In this document: piece by piece, positions 25,237 through 37,059 of the stretch
Position numbering within the stretch: position 1 is the first letter of the stretch
Layout of the letters: each line of letters begins with the position of its first letter
Source: Sanyastnella coralliicola
Lineage (GTDB): Bacteria; Bacteroidota; Bacteroidia; Flavobacteriales_D; Sanyastnellaceae
Direction: 5' to 3'
Assembly: GCF_030845195.1 (NCBI RefSeq)
Contig: NZ_CP132543.1
Location: 3,985,501-4,049,500, forward strand
Length of the DNA: 64,000 nt
Translations under genes and position numbers: made by a program
The notes under the pieces: model-generated
What the model saw: the letters and a program-made list of their open reading frames with translations, nothing else
Told to the model about the DNA's origin: nothing
Database searches by the model: none

Positions 25237-26117
25237 TTAAGCATCATCAACATGTCTTCCACAAGGGAAACGGGGTCAGTTCCTTGGAGCGAAGCATAGC
25301 GTGATGGAGCCTCTGCCGATTCCGCGATAGCGCAAAACAAATGATACTGATCACCTTCTTTAGTACAATGTGCACCAAAAGGGAGCTGGCAACCGCCGTC
25401 TAACTCGCGAAGCAGGGTGCGTTCAATGCGAACATTGGCGGCATCACTGGTATTCGTAAGCTGCTTCAATTGATCAAGTCTCGGATCATTGTCGCGCATT
25501 TGAAACGCCAAGGCACCTTGTGCTGGAGCGGGGATGAATTCGGTAGGCTCTAGGTCTACCACTTCGAATTCAGAAAGGTCAAGTTCAAGGCGCTTAATGC
25601 CCGCCTTTGCCAGAACGATTGCGTCGTATTGACCCTGACGAAGCTTGTCGATACGAGTAGGAACATTCCCGCGAAGATCATTCGTAGTGCACTGCGGAAG
25701 GTGGAACTTCAGCTGCGACTTGCGACGAGCAGAAGAAGTGCCAATCACTGCGTCTTCGGCCACTTTGAATTTGGCGTTCTGAACTGCTTTTTCTTTTCGG
25801 ATCAACAAGACATCTTCTACGAAGCTTCTGTTTGGAACAGCTGCAATGCAAAGACCTTCGGGCTGACGCGTTTCCAGGTCTTTGTGTGAGTGAACGGCGA
25901 GATCTACGGCGCCAGATAGAAGCGCCTCTTCAATCTCCTTGGTGAAGAATCCCTTTCCCTCCATCTTGTCAAAGCTCAGGTGTTGGATTTTATCTCCTTG
26001 GGTCTTGATGATCGTAATCTCACTTTCAATTCCGATCGAAGAAAGTAGTTCTTGGGTATGGTTAGCTTGCCAGAGAGCAAGATCGCTTCCTCTGGTACCA
26101 ATGATGATCTTCGACAT
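25224..26117 (-). CDS. hemC: Hydroxymethylbilane synthase (porphobilinogen deaminase)
   Basis: HemC polymerises four porphobilinogens to hydroxymethylbilane. The 297 residues show IIIGTRGSDLALWQA, the HSHKDLE motif, GTSSARRKSQL, LRGNVPTRIDKL and the dipyrromethane-cofactor cysteine C243 in LDGGCQLPFGAHC. It is preceded by hemA with a TAATG stop/start overlap. It ends ATG-CTT-AAA-AAA-AAA-GCC-TAG, whose nine-A run lies exactly where the hemD frame opens in the -1 register. One 13-base word encodes C-A-I-A-E-S. Confidence 0.96.
   Translation of the reverse strand: MSKIIIGTRGSDLALWQANHTQELLSSIGIESEITIIKTQGDKIQHLSFDKMEGKGFFTKEIEEALLSGAVDLAVHSHKDLETRQPEGLCIAAVPNRSFVEDVLLIRKEKAVQNAKFKVAEDAVIGTSSARRKSQLKFHLPQCTTNDLRGNVPTRIDKLRQGQYDAIVLAKAGIKRLELDLSEFEVVDLEPTEFIPAPAQGALAFQMRDNDPRLDQLKQLTNTSDAANVRIERTLLRELDGGCQLPFGAHCTKEGDQYHLFCAIAESAEAPSRYASLQGTDPVSLVEDMLMMLKKKA
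25230..25238 (-). other. Nine-A homopolymer at the hemC-hemD junction
   Basis: A run of nine A on the coding strand, five bases before the end of hemC. A shift to the -1 frame here joins HemC directly to the complete HemD. Runs of this length are known to promote transcriptional slippage and ribosomal frameshifting. Confidence 0.7.
25320..25332 (+). repeat. Dispersed 13-mer TTCCGCGATAGCG, copy 5
   Basis: Exact copy inside hemC; in the gene sense it encodes C-A-I-A-E-S. It is only 329 bases from copy 4. Confidence 0.95.
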
Positions 26118-27334
26118 TAGTTGCGGTTGGCATTTTCAAGCATCACTTCACGAGCGAGCTTCATCGGGACACTAATGTATTTCTTTTCCATGTATCCCAG
26201 GATCTTGTGGAGGAGCTCGATTGATGCTTCATCCATCTGATCTAGTTCTTTAGAGAAGACTTCTCCGAGGGCTGTTTCCTTGATCTGTTTAATCAGATCA
26301 GGAATCTCACGCATTGCGAGTTCAATCTCACGTTGACGAAGGATTACTCGGAAATCTTCCATCGCCTCATCCAAAATCTCCTTACAACGATCAAGCTCTC
26401 CTTTACGGACTTCAATGTTGCGCTCGGCTTCGGCTTGCAGTTCAGTCATGCCTAGGTAGCTCACACGATCATCTTCTTTCACTTCGTCAGCAACATCAGC
26501 TGGAAGGGCCATGTCAATGATAAAGAGTTGGTCAGACCAAAGCCCTGAAAGAAAATCGGTAGTTACAATTGGCTCTTCGCTACCGGTACATGTAACCACT
26601 GCGCGGTACTGCTTGTCGGTAGGAATGTGGTAGAGTTGTACTGCTTCCCAGTTGTTCGCCTTAGCAACAGTGGTAGCACGTTCGAGTGTACGGTTGGCTA
26701 CAGTCACGTTGCGGTAACCCTCTTTTGAAAGGAAACGGGCAAAATTGCCGTTGGTCTGTCCAGCCCCGATTAACAGGATGGCCTCGTCCTTGGCAATATT
26801 TTGGGCTTTGAAGTTTTTCCACGCTAGTGAAACCACAGAAACAGGTTTCGTTGCAATGGCTGTGTCAGTGTAGATGCGCTTCGATGTTTCGATGACTTTC
26901 TTCGAAACCAGACGCAATAAATCTCCTGAAATCATCCACTTGCGCGAGTCTTCGAATGACTTGCGTACTTGAGTGATAATCTCACGTTCACCAATAACCA
27001 TTGAATCAAGAGAGGCACCCACTTCGAGTAGGTGGCGCATAGCCTCTTCTCCGCGGTAGCTTTGAAAGCTGGCTAGCATTTGTCCTTTCTCTTTTCCTTC
27101 TACTCCGAAGAAATCAAGCAATTGGTTCTCGCGTCCTTTACAGAAGTAGCTGCTGCTAGAGAAGATGAACTCCACACGGTTACACGTGCTGAGGAAGGTC
27201 AATTCCTGCACCTGAAGGTGCTCCTTAAGGTCGTTGAGGAAGTGCGCACGCTTGTCTTCATCGACATGTAATTTACCGATGAGTTCAAGCGGGGCATGCT
27301 TGTGAGTTATGGCAATGATCTGAAGATTCTCCAC
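26117..27334 (-). CDS. hemA: Glutamyl-tRNA reductase
   Basis: HemA reduces glutamyl-tRNA-Glu to glutamate-1-semialdehyde, the first committed step of the C5 tetrapyrrole route. The catalytic cysteine is C51 in FLSTCNRVEF. The SLDSMVIGEREIITQVR segment and the NADPH-binding GAGQTNGNFARFL region follow, then the helical dimerisation domain at the C-terminus. The length of 405 residues is typical. The start codon is GTG. The stop codon overlaps the hemC start (TAATG), so hemA, hemC and hemD form one operon. The partner enzyme HemL is encoded elsewhere, at 43757. Confidence 0.95.
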   Translation of the reverse strand: MENLQIIAITHKHAPLELIGKLHVDEDKRAHFLNDLKEHLQVQELTFLSTCNRVEFIFSSSSYFCKGRENQLLDFFGVEGKEKGQMLASFQSYRGEEAMRHLLEVGASLDSMVIGEREIITQVRKSFEDSRKWMISGDLLRLVSKKVIETSKRIYTDTAIATKPVSVVSLAWKNFKAQNIAKDEAILLIGAGQTNGNFARFLSKEGYRNVTVANRTLERATTVAKANNWEAVQLYHIPTDKQYRAVVTCTGSEEPIVTTDFLSGLWSDQLFIIDMALPADVADEVKEDDRVSYLGMTELQAEAERNIEVRKGELDRCKEILDEAMEDFRVILRQREIELAMREIPDLIKQIKETALGEVFSKELDQMDEASIELLHKILGYMEKKYISVPMKLAREVMLENANRN

Positions 27335-27424: not shown

Positions 27425-28285
27425 TTAGTACGGACATGTAGTCCCAAACTCTCCTAGAAGTAGGAGTAGATCAGCCACAGCGACAATATCGTCACCTGAA
27501 ACATCTAGGTTACAGTCTGCTAGGCATCCAAACTCTCCAATAAGAAGTAGAAGGTCAGCTGTATCTACACCACCTGATGTGTTAAAGTCAGTAAGGCAGG
27601 AGGGTGACACAAAATACTCCTCACATAAAGAAGTAAACTGATATGTCTGGAACAATAACGGGCCTGGTCCGTCTGGATCGAAGATGGTTCCATCTGGATT
27701 TAGCTGACGCACTTGAATGTTGAAGCATGGTGCAAATCCACCTCCACCAAAGGTAAACTGTCCGAGTAGAACACGTCCGTTTTCATCAGGTGAGTTTTGC
27801 GGGATCTGGATAACTGTGGTCACATATATTCCTCCTCCTAGCGGGCCTTCCACTAACCATGTGTCATCTCCTGCTTCGAATCCGTCAAAGATGCTTTCGT
27901 CTGGCAGCACGAAGAGTTGATTGCCATCGAATTCTTCTGCTCCAATGGTGAACCATGAATCGTAAGCGAGTTCTGGGAAGGTTGGAATGATGTCACTATC
28001 GACAGATAGCGAAGTTGGTCCACCTTGAGGGTGCTGGTAGAAGCCGTAAGGCGAAGTAATAGACCAGATATCGTCTTCTACACCATAAATGTACTGTAGC
28101 TCGTAATTCTCCTCTAATTCAAGGTAAACGCGCACAGTGCGAGGTGCAAAACCCAAGTCGTTTTCGATGTTTGTTCGCTCTGGTTCAGGGATATCAATCT
28201 CTTCAAAGTAGAGTCCGATCTGAGGTTCTTGAGCTTGAATAGAAAGCGCAAATGCGCAACACAATAGTAAGAGTAAGCTTCTCAT
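27425..28285 (-). CDS. Secreted protein with duplicated dockerin-like C-terminus
   Basis: About 286 residues; signal peptide MRSLLLLLCCAFALSIQAQ. The body has no recognised domain. The last 60 residues hold two copies of a calcium-loop-like unit: DFNTSGGVDTADLLLLIGEFG and NLDVSGDDIVAVADLLLLLGEFG. This resembles type I dockerin repeats (D-x-[DN]-x-S-G followed by D-LLLL-G-FG) and is found at the ends of secreted Bacteroidota proteins. No classical T9SS domain is present. I prefer the second of two close ATG codons, because it starts the signal peptide cleanly. A calcium-binding anchoring role is inference. Confidence 0.75.
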   Translation of the reverse strand: MRSLLLLLCCAFALSIQAQEPQIGLYFEEIDIPEPERTNIENDLGFAPRTVRVYLELEENYELQYIYGVEDDIWSITSPYGFYQHPQGGPTSLSVDSDIIPTFPELAYDSWFTIGAEEFDGNQLFVLPDESIFDGFEAGDDTWLVEGPLGGGIYVTTVIQIPQNSPDENGRVLLGQFTFGGGGFAPCFNIQVRQLNPDGTIFDPDGPGPLLFQTYQFTSLCEEYFVSPSCLTDFNTSGGVDTADLLLLIGEFGCLADCNLDVSGDDIVAVADLLLLLGEFGTTCPY

Positions 28286-28334
28286 GGTCATAGGGTTATC
28301 TAGTCTAAGGTAACAAAGTTCATCTGCATTCGTT

Positions 28335-28347
28335 CGCTAACGCGGAA
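28335..28347 (-). repeat. Dispersed 13-mer TTCCGCGTTAGCG, copy 6
   Basis: Exact copy in the spacer between nrdB and the dockerin-like gene, about 33 bases after the premature-looking nrdB stop. Confidence 0.95.
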
Positions 28348-28379
28348 TGAGTTGCACCTAGAATAGAAATCCTGACCCC

Positions 28380-29267
28380 CTAGTTCATGAATTTGAACGG
28401 GTTGGCCGTGTTGTATTTCTTGTCGTTCCCCAGCTCAACGAGCAAACGATCGGCTACGAATTCTATGTAACTCGACATGAGGTCGGCATTCATTCCAATC
28501 AACTGGACGGGAAGCGCTTCAAGAATGAATTCCTTTTCGATAGCCACTGCTTCCAAGATGATTTTCTCCACGCGTTCTTTCGGGAGCTTGTTCACTAAGT
28601 GACGTGTGTACAACAAGCAGGCGAAGTCACAGTGAATCCCCTCATCACGCGAGATGAGGGTGTTTGAGAAGCTTAGTCCTGGCATCAATCCACGCGTACT
28701 CAGCCAAAACAAAGAGCAGAAACTACCCGAGAAGAAGATTCCTTCCACCGCGGCAAAAGCGACGAGTCGTTCAGCGAATGACCCGTTTTCGATCCAGTTT
28801 AATGCCCATTGCGCCTTCTTTTTGACACAGTCAAGGGTCTCAATCGCGTTGAAGAGGCGATTCTTTTCTTCTTCCTCCTTTATATAGGTATCGATCAGCA
28901 TGGAATAGGTCTGCGAATGGATGTTTTCCATCATGATCTGGTAACCGTAAAAGAACTTGGCTTCGGTGTATTGCACCTCGGCAACGAAATTCTCTGCCAA
29001 GTTTTCATTCACAATTCCATCGCTCGCAGCGAAGAAAGCGAGGATATGTTTGATGAAATAACGTTCGTCGTCATTTAGCTTGCTGTTCCAATCCACAAGG
29101 TCTTGATCCATCTCGATAGCCTCCGCTGTCCAGAAACTAGCTTCCGACTTTTTGTAGAGCGTCCAAATATCCTTGTGTTCTATAGGGTAGAGCACGAATC
29201 GCTTGGGATTCTCTGTCAAGATTGGTTCTTCCAAAACCGTGTTTTCTGTGGTTGTTTCGCTTTGCAT
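28380..29267 (-). CDS. nrdB: Ribonucleotide reductase small subunit, C-terminal tail missing
   Basis: NrdB supplies the tyrosyl radical for reduction of ribonucleotides. The diiron/tyrosyl core is intact: [57 protein letters not shown] with the probable radical tyrosine, and [14 protein letters not shown]. The 295-residue protein ends [11 protein letters not shown] and stops. Family members normally continue for about 30 residues (a KTNFFEKR-type stretch and the conserved tail) that dock into the large subunit and carry a radical-transfer tyrosine. None of the three frames downstream of the stop encodes such a tail. nrdA is not adjacent. It may be a truncated paralogue, or the gene may be broken. 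Confidence 0.9.
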
Positions 29268-29415
29268 ATTGAGAACGAATTGTACGCAATTTGCCTTCAG
29301 AAAGGCGAAGCAAAGTTCAACGTTTTAAGAGACAAATCAATGCTCCGATTCAAAATGTGATGAAGGTCAAATGTGATTTCGACCAGAATGAAAAACCCGA
29401 CAAGGTGTCAGCTTT

Positions 29416-29460
29416 TTGGGCTTGGCATTATTTTCGTCGAGGAAAAAACCGCAAGCCCAA
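29416..29460 (+). promoter_or_regulatory. Inverted repeat upstream of the secA promoter
   Basis: Arms TTGGGCTTG (29416-29424) and CAAGCCCAA (29452-29460) are perfect complements separated by 27 bases, ending 11 bases before the -7 box. An operator or RNA hairpin is possible. Confidence 0.45.
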
Positions 29461-29471
29461 GGCGAAGATTG

Positions 29472-29479
29472 TATTTTTG
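29472..29479 (+). promoter_or_regulatory. -7 promoter box of secA
   Basis: TATTTTTG, 46 bases before the ATG. Confidence 0.6.
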
Positions 29480-29525
29480 TCGTCCTGGTCAGCAACTGAT
29501 TTGACCATTTGAAGCAATTGAAGCG

Positions 29526-32500
29526 ATGTTAGGAACAGTAAATAAGATCCTGAAGAAGATTCTCGGAGACAAGGCCGAGAAAGATATACAGGAGGTAAGG
29601 CCGGTTGTAGAGGAAATCAATAAGATCTACGCAACCTTAAAGAATGAATCGGCCAATGACCTTCGCCGAAGAAGTGATGATCTGAAGAAGAAGATTCAAG
29701 ACAGCATCGCCGGACTCAACGAAGAGATCAATCAACTCAAGGTGCAAACCGAGACCAATGTCGATATGGATATCGATGCGAAGGAAGCGGTGTACGAGCA
29801 GATTGACAGACTCCAAAAAGAAACAGACACGAAGATCGAAGAGGTCTTGGAAGAGATTCTTCCTGAGGCATTCGCGATCGTGAAAGATACCGCTCGCCGA
29901 TTCACTGAGGAAGCGCCTATACGTGTTCGTGCGAATGATTTCGATAAGCAACTCGCTACTGAGCGTAACTCAGTTGAAATTGACGGAGAGGATGCCCTAT
30001 GGCATAACACTTGGTTAGCTGCAGGAGCAGAAATCAAGTGGGAGATGGTACACTACGACGTACAGCTCGTGGGTGGTATCGCACTACACCGGGGTAAAGT
30101 CGCGGAGATGCAAACAGGGGAAGGAAAGACCTTGGTGGCGACGCTTCCAGTCTTCTTGAACGCACTCGCTGGACGAGGAGTTCACCTCGTAACAGTAAAC
30201 GATTACCTCGCTCGCCGTGACTCGGAATGGATGGGTCCATTGTTTGAGTTCCACGGAATGACCATCGATTGTATTGATAAGCACCAGCCGAACTCTGAAG
30301 CTCGTCGTAATGCTTACCGTGCTTCCATTACTTATGGAACGAACAACGAATTTGGTTTTGACTACCTCCGTGATAACATGGCTTCTGATCCAACTCACTT
30401 GGTTCAGCGCAAGCACCACTTCGCGATTGTCGATGAGGTAGATTCAGTATTGATTGATGAGGCGCGTACGCCATTGATCATCTCTGGTCCAACTCCTAAA
30501 GGAGATCAACACGAGTTTGATGACCTGAAGCCTAAAGTGCAGCTATTGGTAAACGCTCAAAAGAAGGTTGTTACTGGGTTCATTGCTGAGGCGAAGACGT
30601 TGCTTTCTAAAGATGATGCGAGCAAAGAAGAGTTGAACGACGGAGGTCTGGCACTCTACCGTGCTTACCGAGGTCTTCCAAAGACGAAATCATTGATTAA
30701 GTTCCTTTCTGAGGAAGGAATGAAGCAGACACTTCTGAAGACTGAAGGCTACTACCTTCAGGATAATCAGCGTGAGATGCATAAGGCTGACGCCGAATTG
30801 TTCTTCGTTATTGACGAAAAGAACAACCAGGTTGAGCTCACTGAAAAAGGAATTCAACTCGTCACCAAGAACATGGATGACGACAACTTCTTCACGATGC
30901 CAGATGTAGCCACGGAGTTGGTGAACATCGATACCTCTTCGGCATCAGACGAGGAGAAGTTGGCAAGCAAAGAACAGTTGATCAGCGACTTCGGGGTGAA
31001 GTCAGCTCGTATTCACACAATGAATCAGCTGTTGAAAGCATACGCTCTGTTCGAGAAAGACATCGACTACGTTGTCATGGACAACAAAGTGAAGATCGTT
31101 GATGAGCAGACAGGTCGTATCATGGATGGACGTCGATACTCAGACGGACTTCACCAAGCGATCGAGGCGAAAGAGAATGTGAAGATTGAAGCGGCTACGC
31201 AGACCTATGCGACCGTGACGCTTCAGAATTACTTCCGTATGTACCACAAGCTGGCCGGGATGACCGGTACAGCGGAGACGGAAGCAGGGGAGCTATGGGA
31301 CATCTACGAGTTGGATGTGATGATCATCCCTACCAACCGACCTATTGCACGTGATGACCGTCAAGATCTCGTTTTCCGCACCAAGCGTGAGAAATACAAC
31401 GCGGTGATTGATGAGGTAGTGAAGCTAAGTGCAGCTGGTCGTCCGGTACTTGTAGGTACGACAACGGTAGAAGTATCTGAGCTACTTTCGAAGATGTTGA
31501 GCATCCGCAAAGTGGAGCACCAAGTACTGAATGCGAAGATGCACCAACGTGAAGCCGAAGTTGTTGCACAAGCCGGTGGAGCCGGAGTCGTGACCATCGC
31601 AACGAACATGGCCGGTCGTGGTACCGACATCAAGCTTTCGAAAGAAGTGAAGGATGCTGGAGGTTTGGCCATCATTGGTACAGAACGCCACGATTCACGT
31701 CGAGTAGACCGCCAGCTCCGAGGACGTTCAGGACGTCAAGGAGATCCGGGTTCTAGCCAGTTCTACGTGTCATTGGAAGATGATCTCATGCGCCTATTCG
31801 GTTCTGACCGAATTGCGAAGATGATGGACCGTCTAGGAATCGAAGAAGGTGAAGTGATCCAACACAACATGATCACGAAGTCTATCGAGCGCGCTCAAAA
31901 GAAAGTAGAGGAGAACAACTTCGGTATTCGTAAGCGTCTGCTTGAGTATGATGACGTGATGAACTCGCAGCGTGAGGTGATCTACAAGCGTCGTCGTCAC
32001 GCACTTCACGGAGAGCGTTTGAAGCTGGATATCTCGAACATGTTCTACGAATTGGCAGAGAGCATTGTGCTTCTTTACCATGCAGAGAAAGACTTCGGAA
32101 ACTTCTCATTGGAAGTGTTGAAGAATTTCGGAATGGAATCACCATTCACAGAAGAGCAGTTCGCTACTGGAAATCCAGAAACGCTAGCCTACGATCTATA
32201 CCGAGCGAGTGAAGACAATTACCGTCGCAAGTTGGCTCGTCTTTCAGAAGAGGCACTTCCGGTAATCGAGCGTGTTTACCTCGATGAGAACAACAGCTAC
32301 ACCAACATGGCTGTTCCATTCTCAGATGGTACACGAAACCTCAACATTGTTGCGAACATCGAACGATGCTATGAGACGCGCGGAAAGGAACTCATCACCG
32401 CACTTGAGAAGAGTGTAGTTCTCTCATTGCTTGACAATTCATGGAAAGAACACCTCCGTGGAATGGATGATCTCCGTAACAACGTGCAGCACGCCCGTTT

Positions 32501-32861
32501 TGAGCAGAAGGATCCACTCTTGATTTACAAGTTCGAATCATACGAGCTCTTCAAGGGAATGGTCAACAGACTCAATGGAGATGTTGCTGGATTCTTGATG
32601 AAAGCGCAATTACCTGCACGTCAGGAAAGCGTTCAAGAAGCACGCACTCCACGTCGTGATGAAATGAAGAACCTGCAGACGAATAAAGCAGGCGTAGAGA
32701 ATACAGCTCAGCGAGCATCTACAATGCGAGCGCAACAAGCTGGAGCTCCTGCACAACGTCAACAAGCAGTTCAGCCAAGAAAGGCCGAAAAGCAAATCGG
32801 ACGAAACGATCCTTGTCCTTGTGGATCAGGTAAGAAATACAAGCAGTGTCACGGGAAGTAA
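29526..32861 (+). CDS. secA: Preprotein translocase ATPase SecA
   Basis: SecA drives unfolded preproteins through SecYEG. The 1111 residues are longer than the 901 of E. coli, as usual in Bacteroidota. An extended N-terminal helical region precedes Walker A MQTGEGKTLVA at about 195. The DEVD box is at about 303 (FAIVDEVDSVL), followed by an insertion in the first nucleotide-binding domain. VTIATNMAGRGTDIKL and LRGRSGRQGDPG belong to the second nucleotide-binding domain. The C-terminus is the zinc-binding SEC-C motif DPCPCGSGKKYKQCHGK, used to bind SecB/lipid in other bacteria. It serves the first export step for the many signal-peptide proteins of this window. Confidence 0.98.
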   Translation: MLGTVNKILKKILGDKAEKDIQEVRPVVEEINKIYATLKNESANDLRRRSDDLKKKIQDSIAGLNEEINQLKVQTETNVDMDIDAKEAVYEQIDRLQKETDTKIEEVLEEILPEAFAIVKDTARRFTEEAPIRVRANDFDKQLATERNSVEIDGEDALWHNTWLAAGAEIKWEMVHYDVQLVGGIALHRGKVAEMQTGEGKTLVATLPVFLNALAGRGVHLVTVNDYLARRDSEWMGPLFEFHGMTIDCIDKHQPNSEARRNAYRASITYGTNNEFGFDYLRDNMASDPTHLVQRKHHFAIVDEVDSVLIDEARTPLIISGPTPKGDQHEFDDLKPKVQLLVNAQKKVVTGFIAEAKTLLSKDDASKEELNDGGLALYRAYRGLPKTKSLIKFLSEEGMKQTLLKTEGYYLQDNQREMHKADAELFFVIDEKNNQVELTEKGIQLVTKNMDDDNFFTMPDVATELVNIDTSSASDEEKLASKEQLISDFGVKSARIHTMNQLLKAYALFEKDIDYVVMDNKVKIVDEQTGRIMDGRRYSDGLHQAIEAKENVKIEAATQTYATVTLQNYFRMYHKLAGMTGTAETEAGELWDIYELDVMIIPTNRPIARDDRQDLVFRTKREKYNAVIDEVVKLSAAGRPVLVGTTTVEVSELLSKMLSIRKVEHQVLNAKMHQREAEVVAQAGGAGVVTIATNMAGRGTDIKLSKEVKDAGGLAIIGTERHDSRRVDRQLRGRSGRQGDPGSSQFYVSLEDDLMRLFGSDRIAKMMDRLGIEEGEVIQHNMITKSIERAQKKVEENNFGIRKRLLEYDDVMNSQREVIYKRRRHALHGERLKLDISNMFYELAESIVLLYHAEKDFGNFSLEVLKNFGMESPFTEEQFATGNPETLAYDLYRASEDNYRRKLARLSEEALPVIERVYLDENNSYTNMAVPFSDGTRNLNIVANIERCYETRGKELITALEKSVVLSLLDNSWKEHLRGMDDLRNNVQHARFEQKDPLLIYKFESYELFKGMVNRLNGDVAGFLMKAQLPARQESVQEARTPRRDEMKNLQTNKAGVENTAQRASTMRAQQAGAPAQRQQAVQPRKAEKQIGRNDPCPCGSGKKYKQCHGK

Positions 32862-35482: not shown

Positions 35483-37059
35483 TTAGATGTCTACTGCTCG
35501 TAGTATTGGCTGTTGCCATGTTTTCTTGTGCGAAAATCGTTCCGATTGATGGAGGCGATAGAGACACGGAAGCCCCACGTGATACCTTGATGGTTCCACG
35601 AAATTTGAGCACGAACTTTCAGGGTACGCGTATCTACATTGAGTTCAATGAGTACGTGACTTTGAACGATATCTACAATCAATTGGTGGTGTCTCCTCCG
35701 CTCGAGACTCAACCTGAGATTCGAATTCGAAAGAAGGCGGTCATCATTAACCTCCAGGAAGACTTGCTACCCAATGTGACTTACACCATGAATTTCGGTA
35801 CGGGTGTCGTAGACGTCAATGAGGGCAATCCCGCGGAGAATTTGATGTACGTCTTCTCTACTGGCCCTGAACTAGATAGTTTGACCTTGGCCGGAGAAGT
35901 GCGAGACGCGTTCACCGGACAACCTGTTCAGGGGGCCAAAGTCATGCTGTATGAATCACTTGAGGATAGCATGCCCCGGACGAGTCGTCCGTATTACTTC
36001 ACCCGAACGGATGAAGAAGGTAAATACCAGTTCAGCTACTTGAAAGAAGGTGAGTTTCAGTTGTTCGCTATCGCGGAAGAGGCTCAGAACTATATCTACG
36101 ATCTGCCTGAAGAGCGGATTGCTTTCCTTGATTCCACGGTTTTCCCGGGACGACCTTCAGAAGCAAAGACGCTTCCTACCTTGCGATTGAGTCAAGAAAT
36201 TGACACGACTCAATACGTGGAAAGTGCTGTTTCAGATAGTTCTGGATTCTTGCGCGTGAAGATGTACAACCCGTTTGCTAACGGTGTACCGGTATCGATA
36301 GCAACTGTGCCGCCACAAGCAATTAATGTTTGGTACGAAGGCCAAGACTCGCTCTTTGCTTGGACCGATGCATCCTATGTAGGTGAAAGAGACTGGGTAG
36401 TAAATGCTGGAGAGAGTTCAGATACCTTGCGTGAAGAAGGGTTCGAGTACGTTGCTCGAAACCTTGCCTTGCGCTCTGGAATGCCTGGAGCTGTACCTGC
36501 AGACGATACACTGAGCTTACGCTTTGATTTGCCCGTAGAAAGGCTTTCGCCGTTCCGCGTTAGCGCAAAAAGAGACTCCATTGATATTCCTGTGGAGATG
36601 AGTGAGAGTGAAGATCCCTTCGCGGTGAATTTCGATCTCGACTTAGAACCGGGGAATTCTTATGAACTGATGTTGCTTCCAGAAGCAGTCATTGGTTTTG
36701 ATGGAGCCAAGACTGATACCTTGATTTGGGCATTTGATACCCATGACCAAGAGCACTACGGTTTGTTACGTTTAGATTACGTTTCACAGGGCAATCGAGA
36801 AGGAATTATCGAGCTCACAGATAAAGGAGGAAGCGTGGTTCGAGTGGTGAAAGTTGTTGGAAGCCAACAGCTTGAGTTTGCAGGTCTGTTGCCCGGTGTG
36901 TATCGATTACGTATCTTCTTTGATGAAAATGCCAACGGCTTGTGGGATCCAGCAGATTTCGCTTCGAAAACCCAGCCGGAAATGATGCTAAATATGCCTG
37001 GTGAAATTTCAGTTCGTTCCAATTGGGAAGTTGATCTGGAATGGATCATGGAAAATTAG
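35473..37059 (+). CDS. Ig-like/carboxypeptidase-regulatory domain lipoprotein
   Basis: A 528-residue lipoprotein with lipobox-like AMFSC at the end of the signal. Residues 33-130 form a bacterial Ig-like (SbsA-type) domain: IYIEFNEYVTL, PPLETQPEIR, LLPNVTYTMNFGTGVVDVNEGNP. A CarboxypepD-regulatory-like unit follows (AGEVRDAFTGQPVQGAKVMLYESLE and DEEGKYQFSYLKEGEFQLFAI). The remaining beta-rich part is unassigned. This architecture is common in Bacteroidota; the role is unknown. The start is GTG and overlaps msrC, so they are probably co-transcribed. Two copies of the 13-base word lie in it, on opposite strands. Confidence 0.8.
   Translation: MHVIRCLLLVVLAVAMFSCAKIVPIDGGDRDTEAPRDTLMVPRNLSTNFQGTRIYIEFNEYVTLNDIYNQLVVSPPLETQPEIRIRKKAVIINLQEDLLPNVTYTMNFGTGVVDVNEGNPAENLMYVFSTGPELDSLTLAGEVRDAFTGQPVQGAKVMLYESLEDSMPRTSRPYYFTRTDEEGKYQFSYLKEGEFQLFAIAEEAQNYIYDLPEERIAFLDSTVFPGRPSEAKTLPTLRLSQEIDTTQYVESAVSDSSGFLRVKMYNPFANGVPVSIATVPPQAINVWYEGQDSLFAWTDASYVGERDWVVNAGESSDTLREEGFEYVARNLALRSGMPGAVPADDTLSLRFDLPVERLSPFRVSAKRDSIDIPVEMSESEDPFAVNFDLDLEPGNSYELMLLPEAVIGFDGAKTDTLIWAFDTHDQEHYGLLRLDYVSQGNREGIIELTDKGGSVVRVVKVVGSQQLEFAGLLPGVYRLRIFFDENANGLWDPADFASKTQPEMMLNMPGEISVRSNWEVDLEWIMEN
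36066..36078 (-). repeat. Dispersed 13-mer TTCCGCGATAGCG, copy 7
   Basis: Exact minus-strand copy in the Ig-like lipoprotein gene; encodes F-A-I-A-E-E. Confidence 0.95.
36553..36565 (+). repeat. Dispersed 13-mer TTCCGCGTTAGCG, copy 8
   Basis: Exact plus-strand copy in the same gene; encodes F-R-V-S-A, so here the opposite strand of the word is read. Confidence 0.95.

Follow-up and report, generated by a model that had tools for sequence, protein, structure and literature searches.

A conserved NrdB core without docking tail and class Ia NrdA partner in Sanyastnella coralliicola and Cryomorpha ignava

Introduction

Beta subunits (NrdB, R2) of ribonucleotide reductases (RNRs) are usually seen as radical feeders of the alpha subunit. 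An R2 fold that works without R1 is known from R2lox, which lacks the R1-binding tail and is marked by a Mn/Fe centre, a Tyr-Val cross-link and a bound fatty acid. One R2lox member has been reported to be an alkane monooxygenase (PMC10867098). In E. coli NrdB the C-terminal tail comprises residues 341–375, carries Y356 and is described as essential for the alpha/beta interaction, and E52 as essential for activity (PMC9248007).

Shortened NrdB proteins are on record for E. coli C600 (the truncated beta') and for Candidatus Liberibacter asiaticus. According to PMC5154197 these are forms that occur beside full-length ones: beta' is non-functional and accompanies full-length beta, and the short copies of Liberibacter, 3′ ends of 125 aa, lack the iron site and occur in a genome that has nrdA and a full-length nrdB. 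A further subclass is represented by the class Id NrdBi of Leeuwenhoekiella blandensis (PMC5794259, PMC6754362). Its Mn2(IV,III) cofactor forms from superoxide or H2O2, not from O2 (PMC6754362), and a 2018 paper states that every species with ATP-cone NrdBs also encodes other RNRs (PMC5794259).

Here we describe a NrdB of Sanyastnella coralliicola encoded in a 64,000-nucleotide stretch of its genome (the window). It shares fold, metal ligands, radical tyrosine and in-core transfer residues with the eukaryote-like class Ia NrdB/R2 proteins (human RRM2, mouse R2, full-length Flavobacteriales NrdB), but it has no tail, its genome has no class Ia nrdA, and the counterpart of E52 is Ala, as it is in a congener. 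Among the titles and abstract openings listed in searches of the open-access literature, none reported a tailless, NrdA-less, conserved NrdB.

Results

The NrdB of the window ends at the boundary of its folded core

The nrdB gene at 28380..29267 (minus strand) encodes a class Ia-type protein of 295 aa, which matched the PF00268 profile (Ribonuc_red_sm) with 370.7 bits (cut-off 33.6). An earlier note, made from the sequence alone, had described an early TAG after ANPFKFMN and the absence of the tail. Indeed, the protein terminates one residue past the core motif NPFKFM (end and stop codon at 28380..28403, minus strand), whereas 38–43 residues follow NPFxFM in 52 of the 55 NrdB proteins that were aligned, the window protein among them being one of the three that differ. 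These three are the window protein, the NrdB of a congener (G001) and that of Cryomorpha ignava QSSC 1-22 (G050). For this comparison 60 genomes were searched (the own genome included), and 53 of them gave a NrdB match. In an alignment with E. coli NrdB the end of the window protein falls near position 335, thus the entire tail (341–375) is missing.

A tail reached by frameshift or read-through was ruled out by translating all three frames beyond the stop; none gives tail-like sequence, as had been noted before. A search of the own genome with a tail peptide, run without a positive control, returned zero matches for a tail encoded in trans. The DNA of the congener G001 comes from a metagenome that was assembled separately (JAKVAX010000006, isolate ALOHA_ZT_13), and its NrdB is 98% identical to that of the window with the same short ending, which excludes an assembly error at the stop. 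The 13-base word that the earlier note had placed past the stop exists (CGCTAACGCGGAA at 28335–28347). A single inverted copy of it begins at 36553 of the window, and one base differs in G001; nothing that we saw links the word to the truncation.

The diiron core proved intact, as the earlier note had also claimed. Its six metal ligands are kept, together with Y121 (E. coli Y122; 28905..28907, minus strand), W46, R207 and D208, in all three tailless and all 52 full-length proteins. Among solved structures, R2 of human and of mouse come closest. The protein as modelled by AlphaFold2, with a mean pLDDT of 85, matched human RRM2 in Foldseek with an E-value of 4.7e-24 and a TM score of 0.90, at 66% identity in the fold alignment, and human RRM2 crystal constructs end at the same core boundary as both tailless NrdB endings. 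The longer full-length relatives matched are 71–84% identical. With the NCBIfam NrdB equivalog models, which may not cover this clade, the protein remained below the cut-offs (138.8 bits against 309 and 137.3 bits against 237 for the best models). Measured against class Ia NrdB, it has the R2 ferritin-like core with six ligands as well as the radical Tyr and the in-core transfer Trp and Asp, and it lacks the docking tail with the interfacial Tyr, a cognate NrdA in the genome and the glutamate at E52. Assignment to R2lox was rejected by profile score: the best R2lox model gave 39.9 bits (cut-off 194) and the others less. Unlike R2lox, the protein also keeps the RNR-type tyrosine, besides its identity to human RRM2.

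nrdA and the tail codons are missing from a conserved locus

In a species of the same genus (G002) and one of the same family (G003) nrdB is followed by nrdA, further genes and a HemA-like gene, and is preceded by a divergent SecA-like gene. These anchors still flank nrdB in the window (SecA-like at 29526..32861, plus strand; HemA-like at 26117..27334, minus strand; both named by reading the sequence, without database search). The NrdB tail codons and nrdA are gone. The segment that in G002 and G003 holds these codons together with a complete nrdA (791 and 813 aa) is represented here by 88 bp (28292..28379, minus strand), and no remnant of tail or nrdA was detected in this junction. The next gene (27425..28291, minus strand) encodes a secreted-looking protein of 288 aa, whose orthologue directly follows nrdA in G003. 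G001 likewise has the anchor genes and lacks nrdA and the NrdB tail.

A tblastn search with the G003 NrdA (E up to 10) found no nrdA in the window or in the corresponding loci of G001 (L037) and C. ignava (L038), and gave a strong match in that of G002 (L036). The earlier observation that no nrdA lies beside nrdB was therefore correct, and the full-length loci of G002 and G003 do have it next door.

Some further features of the locus were recorded. The 288-aa protein is fast-evolving, carries two C-terminal dockerin-like repeats (by reading the sequence) and gave no match in an NCBIfam search; similar proteins lie near nrdB/nrdA in G001, G002, G003 and G007. In C. ignava the tailless nrdB is separated from the HemA-like gene by about 2.7 kb of AT-rich DNA containing small ORFs (L038, 1513–4231), in which no nrdA remnant was detected. 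The intergenic region between nrdB and secA (29268–29525), which probably holds the promoters of both genes, is 93% identical between the window genome (G000) and G001; synonymous sites of both genes differ by about 0.2–0.4.

A class Id-type pair is the only reductase found in the genome

The earlier note had proposed to look elsewhere in the genome for nrdA, a second full-length nrdB or other reductase classes. The genome is a single contig of 4.10 Mb (99.87% complete), in which PF02867 matched one locus, at 3.51 Mb, and PF00268 matched two. The NRDD profile for class III gave no match in the window genome, G001 or C. ignava, whereas the controls matched. A hidden nrdA and a class III reductase were rejected on these results.

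The locus at 3.51 Mb (C1:3512029-3515100; L005, L001) encodes a NrdBi of 424 aa and a NrdAi of 597 aa, a pair that is named from homology and appears to be of class Id type. NrdBi has an N-terminal ATP-cone-like part and its own complete tail, and its best PDB match was 5OLK (E 2.9e-205), which we take to be the Leeuwenhoekiella blandensis protein. NrdAi has a CVSC cysteine pair near its end and scored 764 bits with TIGR02510 of NCBIfam (NrdE-prime; cut-off 602). The only NrdA-type protein found is hence NrdAi, and the second NrdB is NrdBi with its tail. NrdBi, the present small subunit of the genome beside NrdAi, belongs to a different subclass, from which the tailless NrdB is not derived; the latter could not be classed as NrdBi itself, the NrdBi gene being a separate locus.

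NrdAi is the sole strong PF02867 match in the window genome, G001 and C. ignava. The complete NrdAi/NrdBi pair was read in the window genome, while in the other two NrdAi was seen as the replacement large subunit. One weak PF02867 match was observed in C. ignava (G050:C17:33552-34265; 24.8 bits, cut-off 23.9; another frame, 676 aa). Contrary to the statement in PMC5794259, NrdAi/NrdBi with its ATP-cone is the only RNR found in the window genome, and G001 and C. ignava have no clear large subunit other than NrdAi.

A second tailless NrdB occurs in Cryomorpha ignava and the form is rare

The NrdB of C. ignava has 294 aa and ends with NPFDFMVK-stop, two residues past the motif, so that the positions of its ending and that of the window protein differ by no more than one residue; in each case the folded core ends there. 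NrdAi is present in this genome and class Ia NrdA is absent. In a tree of core proteins the C. ignava NrdB is nested among full-length NrdB of its own family, apart from the window clade, and thus looks independent. The nodes enclosing it have ultrafast bootstrap values of 96 and 98, its pairing with G039 has 61, and deeper nodes are weak.

We scanned a genome collection, which by its description holds 84,980 species and from which the window's own record may be absent, with a pattern that combined the C-terminal core with a TAA or TAG no more than two codons later. Of 59 stretches, 57 were out of frame; the two in frame were C. ignava and G001. The core part of the pattern alone matched 59 of 79 loci, several of which have no NrdB, which indicates good sensitivity in this clade, the only one for which it was gauged. 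Viral contigs gave 79 stretches with the core-plus-stop pattern, none in frame, and a TGA version gave no match in 395 genomes of the phylum, among which no genome known to match served as control.

A NrdB match at 1e-40 was obtained for 310 of the 349 genomes of the order, counting the own genome. Among the matches listed, only those of the window, G001 and C. ignava are tailless; roughly half of the 310 were judged by E-value, except for seven that were read directly and are all tailed. Fifteen further low scorers were re-examined and turned out to be partial matches, most at contig edges or with a tail.

Tailless NrdB occurs where class Ia NrdA is missing beside NrdAi

NrdAi at an identity of at least 73% is encoded by 20 of the 349 genomes of the order. 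A tailless NrdB is present in three of the seven that lack class Ia NrdA and in none of the 13 that have it (G039 and twelve others, one partial). Eleven of these 13 have a tailed NrdB: the match extends to the query end in G039, G079, G240 and G256, and the tail was read directly in G066, G086, G112, G114, G189, G191 and G345. The other two, G288 and G298 (L245, L246), encode NrdAi and a NrdA of 69–70% identity, yet gave no NrdB match, either at 1e-40 or upstream of that NrdA. The remaining genomes without NrdA (G068, G097, G118, G136) are drafts, 74–94% complete, with close NrdAi and no NrdB match. No tailed NrdB without NrdA, and no tailless NrdB with NrdA, was thus found in this set. Fisher's test of tailless NrdB against NrdA loss gave 0.03, a value that takes the window genome and G001 for two independent cases although they are related; the 20 genomes represent two evolutionary events, not 20 independent cases.

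A more distant NrdAi (50–53%) occurs in 12 genomes, of which seven had no NrdB match and five had one with an E-value of the full-length type; two matches at 39–40% were excluded as another type. Since four genomes with close NrdAi and seven of the 12 with distant NrdAi gave no NrdB match, the retained function would be dispensable in other lineages.

The tailless core changed in a burst and is now constrained

The nrdB genes of the window genome and G001 differ at 7, 2 and 57 first, second and third codon positions, respectively. Within the core there are 4 amino-acid differences in 282 codons, and the YN00 omega was 0.025 for the core and 0.034 for the whole gene. Full-length NrdB gave 0.009–0.052 in the 8 computable pairs, and the neighbouring genes of the two genomes gave, by dividing YN00 values, about 0.06 (HemA-like), 0.05 (HemC-like), 0.10 (secreted 288-aa protein) and 0.02 (SecA). 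As its omega lies within these ranges, NrdB is constrained like working genes in this lineage, to which the dN/dS evidence refers; C. ignava lacks a close relative for such a comparison. For 13 of 22 pairs, including those of the window genome with G002 and G003, no dN/dS value was obtained (likely saturation), so that the stem has no omega.

Branch lengths point to an earlier phase of rapid change. The stem of the tailless clade measures 0.23–0.27 substitutions per site against 0.05–0.07 for G002, and no such excess was seen on the stem in SecA (0.138 vs 0.151) or HemA (0.190 vs 0.285). The C. ignava branch (0.165) is about three times those of G039 and G080. Rapid change at first and constraint later would be expected of a protein that took on another job. 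Nevertheless, some relaxation persists, since tailless NrdB still changed faster than full-length NrdB, relative to SecA, after the split of the window genome and G001, and since the full-length pair G007–G026 with matching dS (0.271) has a lower omega (0.009) than they have.

Of 144 core sites invariant in full-length NrdB, 11 are changed in the window protein, 12 in G001 and 6 in C. ignava. In a leave-one-out control at most 5 such sites were changed in any full-length NrdB, and none in 40 of 52. Several changes lie in the segment W46–M53 (29109..29132, minus strand), in which the radical-path Trp is kept and E50A (E. coli E52), D52E and L53M affect sites invariant in the 52. C. ignava has A48V and L53M just past this Trp; L53M and I186L are common to both tailless lineages. 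The docking glutamate itself is Ala in the window and G001 and Glu in C. ignava. Between W46 and L53, three of seven invariant sites are changed in the window and two of seven in C. ignava (Fisher 0.010 and 0.028, descriptive values for a cluster noticed before it was tested). This distribution suggests that part of the docking face was released while the radical generator was kept.

The earlier note had left the choice between a recent truncation and a new use. Recent decay does not agree with an ending common to the congener and an omega of 0.025; a new use fits better and is strengthened by the separate tailless NrdB of C. ignava. The note had also reckoned with relatives in which the same short ending belongs to the only functional NrdB. 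Two relatives do share the ending, but a second reductase is present.

Discussion

The data demonstrate loss of the tail and nrdA, a replacement reductase, purifying selection, intact cofactor residues and two occurrences in separate families. We consider the following course of events fairly likely. An ancestor with an ordinary class Ia nrdB-nrdA operon would have gained, presumably by transfer, a class Id-type reductase (NrdAi and ATP-cone NrdBi), which took over ribonucleotide reduction. Then nrdA and the NrdB tail would have been lost, most simply by one deletion, and the folded core would have been retained by selection and adapted to a job without NrdA, as a putative stand-alone diiron-tyrosyl oxidase on a path parallel to the origin of R2lox. 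Having lost its tail and, in the window, E52 as well, the protein is not expected to supply any NrdA with radicals. Judged by its residues, what is left can coordinate two metals, activate O2 and store or pass an oxidising equivalent, which favours a stand-alone oxidase. From its sequence, the role outside RNR is probably an O2-activating oxidation.

The main rival holds that the tailless NrdB aids the class Id enzyme, as a source of superoxide or peroxide for the Mn2(IV,III) cofactor of NrdBi or as a helper for its metal site, much as NrdI helps class Ib. All three tailless proteins do occur in genomes with NrdAi, and the class Id cofactor is made from just these oxidants and not from O2. The co-occurrence would, however, arise in any case, since a genome that has lost one reductase needs another in its place; 17 of the 20 genomes with close NrdAi manage without a tailless NrdB, and we know of no R2 protein that releases superoxide. 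We therefore regard such a helper as unlikely. The retained ferritin-like core with its six metal ligands would also suit a passive sink that binds metal or scavenges O2 or peroxide and leaves the tyrosyl radical unused. For a sink, the radical Tyr and the Trp and Asp of the transfer chain, which all three tailless proteins keep, would be needless, a point softened by the fact that the Trp may be required for cofactor assembly; on balance this role seems rather more doubtful.

A relict on its way out after deletion of nrdA would explain why sites that are otherwise invariant, among them the alpha-docking glutamate, changed in a burst, and why change relative to SecA was still faster after the split. 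It agrees poorly with the differences between the window genome and G001, of which 57 fall on third and 9 on first and second codon positions, with an omega of 0.025–0.034 in that lineage and with a frame that stayed open in both congeners and separately in C. ignava, and we hold it to be improbable. The intact in-core transfer residues would allow a true class I beta subunit that docks NrdAi without a tail, but in E. coli the tail with Y356 and E52 are both described as essential, the E52 counterpart is Ala in the window (though Glu in C. ignava), and NrdAi already has a complete NrdBi; a working beta subunit is very improbable. An assembly error or an overlooked nrdA can practically be dismissed, given the same ending in the separately assembled G001 and the single NrdA-type locus of a nearly complete one-contig genome.

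For the RNR family, the stand-alone oxidase would have wider meaning. In two lineages, one of them demonstrably under selection, the beta core outlives alpha. It is conceivable, and we suggest it tentatively from sequence comparison, that an RNR beta subunit was freed from RNR at least twice by loss of the tail and nrdA and now activates O2 on its own as a Fe2-tyrosyl (or Mn/Fe) enzyme, an early and still near-complete R2lox-like step with the parent state kept in related genomes. The analysis further points to genomes that apparently live on a class Id-type NrdAi/NrdBi alone. Because the ancestral arrangement persists in relatives of the same genus and family, the emergence of an R2 protein with a role outside RNR would be directly testable here.
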